From Flavobacterium endoglycinae (GTDB taxonomy: Bacteria > Bacteroidota > Bacteroidia > Flavobacteriales > Flavobacteriaceae): a stretch of DNA of 64,000 nt. The stretch lies in contig NZ_CP071448.1 in assembly GCF_017352115.1 (NCBI RefSeq), forward strand, positions 1 through 64,000, given 5' to 3'. Shown here in pieces: positions 13,294 to 16,159 of this stretch; position 1 is the first letter of the stretch; the number at the start of each line of letters is the position of its first letter. The notes below the pieces were generated by a model that searched no databases, had not been told where the DNA came from, and saw only the letters and a list, made by a program, of their open reading frames with translations. Position numbers and translations under genes: made by a program.

Positions 13294-13866
13294 TTATTTT
13301 AATAACATTCTCTCCGTAATTATTTTATTTGAAGAAACATCAACTCCAGTCACTTCGGCATACTTTACATTTGGTAACCAGAAGGAACCTCCCTCAATAC
13401 GGACAAATATTTTTTCTACCTGTATTTTTTTCTGATTTAAATGCACAAAAACATGGTATTTTTGATCCGCATCGATCTTTTTTAAAGTTAAAGGCAGCTT
13501 TTTATACGATACAAATCGGAGTTCGAACTCTTCATTATTTAAGGTTTTACTTTCTATACCGTATGCAAATTTTCGTTGTATATAGTTAAAATCTTCTTTT
13601 TCTCCTTTCTCAGCATATCGAATCCAATACGCTTTTATAGGATTGCTTTTGTTTATTTTTCCATTTTCCTCATAATTTATAGCATAAATAGCAGTATTTA
13701 TATTGGGATCACGCTGAATATAAAACAGCATATGATCTATATTTTTTGGTGTTGGAAAATTTAAGGGCGATGGATTTTGTGCCAATAAATCTTCGGAAAT
13801 TATATTTACAAAAATCATTATAAGCACTAATGACTTTGTAAAATATTTAAATAAAAATTGATTCAT
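13294..13866 (-). CDS. DUF4833-domain exported protein
   Basis: A 190-residue protein with a signal peptide (SLVLIMIFVNIISEDLLAQ) and the DUF4833 core: FYIQRDPNINTAIYAINYE, KAYWIRYAEKGEKEDFNYIQ, FAYGIESK, and the closing KIFVRIEGGSFWLPNVKYAE. The function of DUF4833 is unknown; the signal peptide places it in the periplasm or envelope. It is the last gene of a minus-strand operon with GtrA, a CDP-alcohol phosphatidyltransferase and a PhyH-like dioxygenase, starting 14 nt after GtrA. This suggests a role in handling a lipid or glycan made by those enzymes. Confidence 0.8.
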   Translation of the reverse strand: MNQFLFKYFTKSLVLIMIFVNIISEDLLAQNPSPLNFPTPKNIDHMLFYIQRDPNINTAIYAINYEENGKINKSNPIKAYWIRYAEKGEKEDFNYIQRKFAYGIESKTLNNEEFELRFVSYKKLPLTLKKIDADQKYHVFVHLNQKKIQVEKIFVRIEGGSFWLPNVKYAEVTGVDVSSNKIITERMLLK

Positions 13867-13880
13867 AATAAATATTTAAT

Positions 13881-14312
13881 CTAATTTGATTCGATAACAT
13901 TCTGTTTTTCGTTTACTCTAAAAACCCAATTTTTTATCAGCGGATAATTAAATCCATAAGAAACAAACAAGTCTGTGATTAATCTTCCAATTCTATAATC
14001 AATTTGAAATGCCTTTTGAAAAATAAGCGTACCAAATGATTTTAAAGAAATACTTCCTAATACAACCACAGCAAATTTAAAAAGCTGGCTATTGATGGGA
14101 CTGCTGTAACCAGATTGATTTTTAAATACCCAAAATCTATTGATGCTGAAATTGATTATGGCGCCAATGGTTCCAGAAATAAGAATGGAAAAAGTAAAAT
14201 GCAGTTTAAATACTTCTGTTAATAAGATCATTAAACCGTAATCAGTAATACCGCCTAAAAATGCCGCAACTTGTGCTTGAAGAAAAGTGAAAATAGATTT
14301 TTTCTTAAACAT
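13881..14312 (-). CDS. GtrA-family membrane protein
   Basis: A 143-residue protein with four predicted membrane helices and the GtrA signatures GGITDYGLMILL near the N-terminus, GAIINFSINRFWVFK in the middle and FNYPLIKNWVFR at the end. GtrA proteins are linked to moving lipid-linked sugars across the inner membrane for surface polysaccharide or teichoic acid decoration. Its ATG overlaps the stop of the preceding phosphatidyltransferase gene (TAATG at 14312-14314), so translation is coupled. Confidence 0.88.
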   Translation of the reverse strand: MFKKKSIFTFLQAQVAAFLGGITDYGLMILLTEVFKLHFTFSILISGTIGAIINFSINRFWVFKNQSGYSSPINSQLFKFAVVVLGSISLKSFGTLIFQKAFQIDYRIGRLITDLFVSYGFNYPLIKNWVFRVNEKQNVIESN

Positions 14313-14998
14313 TAGTATTGGTTTTTATCTTTCAAATCCCCTAACTTCAAAAGTATTAAGCTGTCTATTATATTAATTACAAATAAAATAGCTGTAATTG
14401 AGCCAGCCAAATAGGTAATTGATCCATCAAAGACAACTTCTATAATTAAAATTAAAGCAATGATAAATCGAAGTTCTGTTGGACCAACAAAGCCGGAATC
14501 TATTGTGTATTCATTTGTAATTTTGTATCGTAACTGACTGATGATGATAGACCAGCCGTAAAATGCCACAAAAGCAAAAGCTAATATCTGTGTGCCATTT
14601 TCAGCATAAATATAATAACCAAAACCAATGAGCACAATACCAATCCAATCAGCAATAATATCAAGTGCAAAACCATACCAACGACGTGGAATATTTCTGT
14701 AATATGCCAACCTTCCATCTAAAGAATCACCCAGCCAGTTTATAACTAAACCCATAATACCTAAAAGCAAATACCACTTTGTTAGATAAGCACCTAAAAC
14801 AAAAGCTAAAAAAATTAATCCCGAACCTAGTGCGCCAATTAAAGTGAGTAAATTAGGCGAAATAAATTTAGGTACTTTTGGAAGTAAAAATACAATGGTT
14901 AATTGTTCTGCTCTTTTTAAAATATTAGTTCGCTTACGGTCTGAAAATGTTCGTTGTAGAATCTCACTGTTACCTTCAACCTGTTTTTCTGTTCCCAT
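14312..14998 (-). CDS. CDP-alcohol phosphatidyltransferase family membrane protein
   Basis: A 228-residue membrane enzyme of the family that transfers a phosphatidyl or phospho-alcohol group from CDP-linked donors. The motif is recognisable as GDSLDGRLAYYRN followed by YGFALDIIADW, matching DxxDGxxA...GxxxDxxxD with all four Asp residues and both Gly. The usual Arg after Ala is Tyr, with Arg two positions later. Six membrane helices are predicted. The soluble N-terminal 30 residues are rich in charged residues. It is coupled by TAATG overlaps to the small gene before it and to GtrA after it. The acceptor alcohol is unknown. Confidence 0.85.
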   Translation of the reverse strand: MGTEKQVEGNSEILQRTFSDRKRTNILKRAEQLTIVFLLPKVPKFISPNLLTLIGALGSGLIFLAFVLGAYLTKWYLLLGIMGLVINWLGDSLDGRLAYYRNIPRRWYGFALDIIADWIGIVLIGFGYYIYAENGTQILAFAFVAFYGWSIIISQLRYKITNEYTIDSGFVGPTELRFIIALILIIEVVFDGSITYLAGSITAILFVINIIDSLILLKLGDLKDKNQY

Positions 14999-15151: not shown

Positions 15152-15958
15152 TTATTTAACAATACCAGCAAAACGTTGATAGAAAACCGTTGGGCTATTT
15201 TCATTTTTAGGAGCATATTTTCCAGCTATAATTGGAATATAAATAACTCTCCTTCTGCTTTCTTCGCCACGGATAGAAGATTCTGCGACTCTGTGCCACA
15301 AACGCCCATCGTGAATGGTTAAATCTCCTGCTTCTGGATTGATAGAAACTTCTTCTGGATCAGCTTTATGATCTAAAAAGTATTTTTTACGAAAAAGCAT
15401 TTGATATATGCTTTGTTTGTGAGTGCCTGGAATGATTTTAAGACCGCCGTTTTCGGGTTTTAACGTACTTAAGTGAATCCCCACATTTAACATTGGGTTT
15501 AATTTTGTACCATAAAAAATGTCTCTTAAACCATCTGTATGCCATCCCATTTTGCTAAACTTGCTTTCTGGTCCGTTGATATAATGATTGAAAACCATTC
15601 CATCTTTTTCTTCAGTACCTAATCTTGCATCATCGCCTGCGAGTTGTAATAAGCTGTTAAATCTTGGATCAAGTAAAAGACCGCTTAAGGTTTGATGATG
15701 TTGATTGATAAAAGCAAAACGCTGTACTATAGGAGATCCATCTAAATCTTTTCCATATTTAATGGGAACACCATTTACTTTTTGAAGATCATTGTCAATC
15801 CATTTTTGTTCTACTTCTTTCGAAGCATTAATGATTGCTGAAACAGTTTCTGGATTTATAAAATTTTTGAAGTGGATAAAGCCATATTGGTTGAAAAAGT
15901 TGATTTGCTCATCAGTTAATTGATTAGCAAGTGTGAAAGTTTTATAAGAAGATACCAT
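15152..15958 (-). CDS. Phytanoyl-CoA dioxygenase (PhyH)-family oxygenase
   Basis: A 268-residue Fe(II)/2-oxoglutarate oxygenase. The facial triad is visible: HTD within KMGWHTDGLRDIFYG (about residues 140-142) and the distal His in DGRLWHRVAES (about 222), followed by the 2-oxoglutarate-binding Arg region RRRVIYIPI. The N-terminus FFNQYGFIHFKNFINPE is typical of PhyH proteins. The substrate is unknown; bacterial members hydroxylate lipids, small metabolites or antibiotics. It is the first full-length gene of the operon 15958-13294 and lies 52 nt downstream of the poly-Cys leader ORF. Confidence 0.85.
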   Translation of the reverse strand: MVSSYKTFTLANQLTDEQINFFNQYGFIHFKNFINPETVSAIINASKEVEQKWIDNDLQKVNGVPIKYGKDLDGSPIVQRFAFINQHHQTLSGLLLDPRFNSLLQLAGDDARLGTEEKDGMVFNHYINGPESKFSKMGWHTDGLRDIFYGTKLNPMLNVGIHLSTLKPENGGLKIIPGTHKQSIYQMLFRKKYFLDHKADPEEVSINPEAGDLTIHDGRLWHRVAESSIRGEESRRRVIYIPIIAGKYAPKNENSPTVFYQRFAGIVK

Positions 15959-16010
15959 GATAAATATATTTAATAAATGAAATAATAAGTTTGAAATTTT
16001 ATCTAAAAGA

Positions 16011-16061
16011 TTAGCAACAGCAACAACAGCAACAACAACACATTCGCATGTTGGCCTGCAT
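16011..16061 (-). CDS. Poly-cysteine leader peptide (16 residues)
   Basis: On the minus strand ATG at 16061 encodes MQANMRM followed by nine consecutive Cys codons (six TGT, three TGC) and TAA at 16013-16011. It lies between a good promoter (16132-16159) and the PhyH-family gene (start 15958). A short, cysteine-saturated ORF at the head of a transcript is the hallmark of a leader peptide whose translation reports Cys-tRNA supply, as His- or Trp-rich leaders do in classical attenuation; metal or oxidant sensing through nascent Cys is an alternative. No strong terminator hairpin is evident in the 49 nt between leader and gene, so coupling might act through translation or Rho. Starts at 16049 or 16043 are also possible. 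Confidence 0.65.
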   Translation of the reverse strand: MQANMRMCCCCCCCCC

Positions 16062-16131
16062 TTGGCTTTTAGGAAAATTAAACAAATTTCTTTTACTTGA
16101 CATATTCTATCGAATTAGTAGATATTTAATA

Positions 16132-16159
16132 CGAAGATAATATAAATTTTCTTTTGCAA
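16132..16159 (-). promoter_or_regulatory. Promoter for the leader/PhyH operon
   Basis: Reading the minus strand, TTG (16159-16157), 17 nt, then TATCTTCG (16139-16132), one mismatch from the Bacteroidota -7 consensus TAnnTTTG. Transcription would start near 16126, giving about 65 nt of leader before the poly-Cys ORF. Confidence 0.55.

Follow-up and report, generated by a model that had tools for sequence, protein, structure and literature searches.

A conserved polycysteine leader ORF upstream of a PhyH-family oxygenase gene in Flavobacterium and its probable role in cysteine sensing within a sulfur regulon

Why should an ORF ending in nine consecutive cysteine codons stand immediately ahead of a PhyH-family oxygenase gene in Flavobacterium endoglycinae? 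We analyzed a DNA stretch of 64,000 nt from this genome (the window), in which the PhyH gene (15152..15958, minus strand; Pfam PF05721), of the Fe(II)/2-oxoglutarate oxygenase family, is followed on the same strand by genes for a CDP-alcohol phosphatidyltransferase (14312..14998; PF01066), a GtrA/DPMS membrane protein (13881..14312; PF04138) and a DUF4833 protein (13294..13866; PF16117), which are possible later members of an operon. A preliminary description of the locus had proposed that these genes are controlled by cysteine or thiol status.

The leader ORF and its conservation

The nine Cys codons (16014..16040, minus strand) were found at the place where they had been described. They read TGT TGT TGT TGC TGT TGT TGC TGT TGC, followed by TAA, and the stop of this ORF is 52 nt away from the PhyH ATG. 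Such a run is not due to chance; in the 5.5-Mb genome, runs of at least six TGY codons occur only in this leader, and each of the other matches is a single run of five. The ORF also lies between a promoter and the PhyH gene, as had been proposed, but the length of 16 codons given to it had to be revised, because an internal Met had been taken as the start. The frame opens at the ATG at 16103 and encodes a peptide of 30 aa (MSSKRNLFNFPKSQMQANMRMCCCCCCCCC; 16011..16103, minus strand, 30 codons plus the stop). This ATG is likely to be the start of the leader, because in most of the relatives an ATG is located 2 nt past a conserved site, described below; in two relatives, L050 and L076, the frame is open only from the internal ATG. 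The TTG-containing promoter noted earlier was recovered as a Bacteroidota-type −7 box, TATCTTCG (16132..16139, minus strand; TTACGTTTG or TTACATTTG in the relatives), with a TTG upstream of it (16157–16159, minus strand), and the motif TTnCnTTTG is kept among the relatives. The leader ATG is ∼28 nt past the −7 box, and hence a 5′ UTR is predicted.

We compared the upstream regions of 80 loci obtained from a PhyH search, mostly of Flavobacterium and 24 of them from the Pedobacter group. In all 80, an ORF with 3–9 Cys codons following M-x-M (M-R-M, M-L-M or M-P-M) precedes PhyH, and the Cys run is thus conserved in the relatives. The leader reads MSNKRNTFNFPKGRMHTNMRMCCCCCCFR in F. johnsoniae strain CI04 (L032) and MSNKTNLFYFLSVPNHSPMRMCCCCA in the Pedobacter group, the most distant leaders being MSLKMQYFSFTHRMPMCCCM. 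TGT and TGC swap freely between the species in the Cys run, and the changes in the leader are mostly synonymous (pN/pS of 0.32 among the Flavobacterium leaders and 0.41 among those of the Pedobacter group). Among the Bacteroidia, PhyH homologues at ≤70% identity had no leader, with one possible exception, L225, and therefore the leader is confined to the close PhyH orthologues in our sample. In this distant genome, a short ORF, MMMGMRCC, and then a GC-rich hairpin are present upstream of a ∼51% identical PhyH copy.

The conservation at the peptide level extends beyond the Cys run (MSNK..N.F.F...MRM), as would be expected if the peptide itself were the product, acting as a small Cys-rich binder of metals or thiols or serving as a precursor on which the PhyH oxygenase acts. 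We consider this highly improbable, as the number of Cys varies from 3 to 9, with Tyr, Arg or Ser in their place at some positions, and neither a peptide family nor a gene for peptide maturation could be identified in Pfam/NCBIfam, where the leader peptide itself gave no credible match. Moreover, the Cys leaders found at other loci (see below) are unrelated in sequence to the PhyH leader, and those loci lack an oxygenase. An Rfam search of the window also returned no match.

A shared operator at sulfur loci with cysteine-rich leaders

Between the promoter and the leader ATG there is a 17-bp near-palindromic sequence, TCTATCGAATTAGTAGA (16106..16122, plus strand), having the features of an operator. 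In the relatives it is conserved as CTACTAATTCTATAGA, likewise positioned past the −7 box and ahead of the leader, in most of them 2 nt before the ATG. A genome search for other MRMC-type leaders by the peptide motif was uninformative, and the operator proved to be the productive probe. Only the matches with 0–1 mismatch outside the genes were used. The matches with two mismatches were discarded, as their counts were the same as those of a reversed-pattern control, i.e. background; two further 1-mismatch matches fall within genes. In five relatives, the search with 0–1 mismatch gave 40 matches versus 10 for the control.

Apart from the PhyH leader (16106..16122), the intergenic sites in this genome belong to an O-acetylhomoserine sulfhydrylase (1950212), a sulfatase (4054028), a glutamate dehydrogenase (4551871), three SusC/TonB receptors (72929, 1442686 and 4067806), an ECF sigma/FecR pair (1135261) and a SAM riboswitch (4936791; RF00162, 79.6 bits). 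Measured from the centre of the site, the −7 box is at −16, −17 or −26 where the site is downstream of it; at other loci the site is upstream, and the box is at +16, +17, +27 or +28. These spacings differ by about one helical turn. At the riboswitch locus (L147:1557-1657), the operator is upstream of the SAM-I riboswitch, so that two sulfur signals are stacked on one transcript.

Several of these loci carry sulfur genes. The sulfhydrylase leader heads the sulfate-assimilation region with CysH, CysD, CysN and sulfite reductase, and at another operator locus cysK and then a family 2A encapsulin come after the sulfatase gene. In the latter cluster (L230:8092-13650), a probable cargo desulfurase follows the encapsulin, and the whole cluster is located behind a Cys-rich leader and a terminator. 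A family 2A encapsulin of the cyanobacterium Synechococcus, SrpI, is upregulated by sulfur starvation (PMC8049743).

At most of the loci, the operator is followed by a Cys-rich leader: MKTIAKGNMMCCRMMQMCIPICCCQK, MKTTATKTYYILPKKYTYNTFCYMCSCC (TTG start), MKTTESISYYILPKKYTYNTFCYMCFCC (GTG start), MKNYSLNIIPFMCSLTMCCMSTRAMKWR together with MRSNRNIQSKMQCCLMKIPCCMCCCR, MKEQFSPSGVTNLLQKQNRQFTAVKNTSSMMCMCW, MQRLKTISYTSFLNMRGMMGSLCLMDHCY and, in this genome, MKEQ...MMCMCW. After 4 of the 9 intergenic sites there is a short ORF with at least three Cys among its 14 final codons, against a chance rate of 1.06%, and after 7 of the 9 there is one with at least two Cys (chance rate 11%), where the chance rate is the share of random positions followed by such a short ORF. 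The same Cys leaders are present at the operator loci of other Flavobacterium genomes, and in a Pedobacter genome we observed MKKVHNLMCCCC... before a SusC gene and an operator site before a siroheme-synthase-like gene. Intrinsic terminators come after the leaders at the sulfhydrylase, glutamate dehydrogenase and sulfatase loci. At the glutamate dehydrogenase locus (L232:424-2033; G000, about 4551900–4553500), the gene stands behind two Cys-rich leaders with an intrinsic terminator between them, a layout that recurs in L166 and partly in L177. Leaders ending in ..CYMC.CC, with a TTG or GTG start, precede a sulfatase or SusC gene twice in this genome and once in a relative (L110, L114 and L195), and at the SusC loci a second mini-leader (MKIMTSCCCR, MKKRMCSK) stands ahead of a hairpin.

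It could be argued that the leader ORF is a mere passenger and that these genes are regulated by the operator alone. This element, strongly conserved as it is, could suffice, and the SAM-riboswitch and ECF sigma/FecR (L131) loci carry the operator with no Cys leader. However, the low pN/pS of the PhyH leader, the retention of its Cys codons across genera and the recurrence of Cys-rich ORFs at unrelated loci of the regulon speak against a passenger, and we judge this explanation improbable.

A candidate for the regulator was also found near the sites. An Rrf2-family gene ends just ahead of the 1442686 site, and a second Rrf2 gene, 50% identical to the first, is part of the sulfate cluster and is preceded by operator-like sites in three genomes. 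From this arrangement, we infer that an Rrf2 protein may bind the 17-bp site.

The operator loci thus appear to constitute a sulfur regulon with Cys-responsive leaders, of which PhyH would be a member. The cysteine or sulfur control put forward in the preliminary description is strongly supported by this comparison: the Cys codons are conserved, and the operator is common to the loci of sulfate assimilation, the sulfatase, cysK and the SAM riboswitch, the majority having Cys-rich leaders of their own. Control of PhyH by cysteine via the leader is accordingly well supported at the level of comparative sequence analysis, and most likely the cell tunes the PhyH oxygenase to its cysteine supply in this way. 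In outline, an Rrf2-type repressor on the 17-bp site, which would cover the transcription start, would hold the promoter down as long as there is ample sulfur. When cysteine is short, charged Cys-tRNA would become scarce, and ribosomes would halt at the Cys codons and form a queue. We hold with good confidence that the ORF encodes a leader peptide by which cysteine is sensed, as part of a sulfur regulon of Flavobacterium and Pedobacter working along these lines.

Predicted RNA structure between the leader and the PhyH start

How stalling on the leader might reach the PhyH gene was considered from the intervening sequence. No intrinsic terminator is present between the leader and PhyH. Folding predicted a long hairpin, with its 5′ arm in the leader codons (16066..16097, minus strand) and its 3′ arm immediately before the PhyH start codon (15972..16009, minus strand); the arms include a CTAAAAG/CTTTTAG stem (16066–16072 with 16003–16009). 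Pairing between leader codons and the region of the PhyH start was obtained in 55 of the 55 Flavobacterium sequences folded, where 90.4% of the cells of the window hairpin are paired, compared with 37–59% when the hairpin is slid. Seven pairs are changed on both sides in these sequences, a modest covariation; the window fold is modestly better than that of shuffled sequence (z ∼ −2), and RNAalifold gave no consensus structure on the same Flavobacterium alignment. The divergence of the leader–PhyH linker is 0.110, versus 0.161 for the intergenic region between PhyH and the CDP-alcohol transferase gene. The long hairpin was not found in the Pedobacter group, where a different fold was obtained.

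Since the PhyH leader lacks a terminator and, in Flavobacterium, the start of PhyH is able to pair with the 5′ codons of the leader, we tentatively favour translational attenuation at this gene. In Flavobacterium, a leader filled with ribosomes would hold the 5′ arm off the PhyH start region and allow PhyH to be translated; with plentiful cysteine, the leader would be cleared of ribosomes and the hairpin would shut the start. A queue would be needed, because the Cys codons come after the 5′ arm and one stalled ribosome leaves the arm uncovered. Taken by itself, we give this translational switch a little less than an even chance.

The distance from the leader stop to the PhyH ATG is 41–56 nt in most of the species. 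At 18 Flavobacterium loci, the leader runs on past the PhyH start, with an overlap of 43 nt. As the overlap is in a different frame, an in-frame fusion of the leader with PhyH at these loci was ruled out. The overlapping tail has a pN/pS of 1.35, with no codon-level selection.

These short distances and overlaps would also suit a switch of the opposite sign, in which the translation of PhyH requires the leader to be completed, through coupling or by opening of the hairpin, which leader translation could achieve. Stalling at the Cys codons would then lower PhyH, and the enzyme would be made only at sufficient cysteine. Against this, the sister leaders at the sulfate-assimilation and sulfatase loci have the leader–terminator order that predicts expression to be ON in starvation, and in the overlapping species the leader stop is 43 nt past the PhyH start, which is awkward for reinitiation. 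We therefore regard the opposite sign as unlikely. Repression at plentiful cysteine, as in the translational attenuation proposed above, fits the 18 overlapping loci, because a leader read to its end crosses the PhyH start.

The PhyH oxygenase and related regulatory systems

The AF2 model of PhyH (pLDDT 89) gave Foldseek matches to generic Fe/2OG oxygenases only, and the protein looks like a generic Fe/2-oxoglutarate oxygenase in this model. The orthologues are 79–96% identical, and the invariant H140, D142 and H222 fit a metal triad. The preliminary description had also linked sulfur supply to lipid chemistry, with a sulfur-containing lipid replaced by a phospholipid. This idea found no support, as the leader tracks PhyH and not the CDP-alcohol transferase and GtrA genes. 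These two are much less conserved than PhyH, and they were not found beside PhyH at four loci in which the leader is retained (L083, L088, L090 and L091). Between Flavobacterium and the Pedobacter group, PhyH is 79–89% identical, and the neighbouring CDP-alcohol transferase and GtrA ∼60%. The strong identity of PhyH may reflect either an unusually strong constraint or transfer between orders. TauD and AtsK are 2-oxoglutarate oxygenases of sulfonates and sulfate esters, and by analogy with these enzymes it is plausible that PhyH performs a sulfur-releasing or sulfur-sparing oxidation.

The nearest known case is that of the mycobacterial polycysteine leaderless short ORFs, cysteine-responsive attenuators (Canestrari et al. 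2020, Mol Microbiol 114:93, doi 10.1111/mmi.14498, as cited in PMC13236596). As far as that citing account describes them, they too are short Cys-run ORFs ahead of an operon, and the same responsiveness is predicted for the Flavobacterium leader. They belong to another phylum and head sulfur-assimilation genes, whereas the PhyH leader heads an oxygenase gene, has a predicted 5′ UTR and adjoins the operator of a regulon. With the trp/his-type transcription attenuators, the leaders share a codon run for one amino acid, and the leader plus terminator at the sulfhydrylase, sulfatase and glutamate dehydrogenase loci is the classical attenuator layout; the PhyH leader differs in having no terminator before the gene. 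The pairing predicted in Flavobacterium, between the leader and the start of the gene that follows, resembles the ermC-type translational attenuators. However, the proposed cause of stalling is uncharged tRNA and not a drug, the sensor codons come after the 5′ arm, and the pairing was not found in the Pedobacter group. The Rrf2-family genes beside the operator and the regulated sulfur genes recall the CymR (Rrf2-family) cysteine regulons of Firmicutes; here, the regulator is a candidate by adjacency, Cys-rich leaders are combined with the operator and TonB/SusC receptors are included. Leader-peptide attenuation ahead of amino-acid biosynthesis operons has been described in the transcriptome of Flavobacterium psychrophilum (PMC9723704). 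In the open-access full-text literature, we did not find this regulon or Cys-rich leaders in Bacteroidota; subscription papers were largely outside this search, and the novelty is thus provisional.

As a more complete but tentative proposal, which we think has less chance of being right than the translational switch alone, one Rrf2-type operator and locus-specific Cys-rich leaders may act in series, with transcription attenuation at the sulfate, sulfatase and other loci and translational attenuation at PhyH, in that case a new sulfur-scavenging or sulfur-sparing oxygenase.

From the comparison, a probable sulfur regulon emerges, consisting of an operator, candidate regulators and Cys-reading leaders, in a phylum that is abundant in soils and waters. 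Its regulation alone predicts that the highly conserved PhyH oxygenase would be a part of the sulfur economy of these bacteria.
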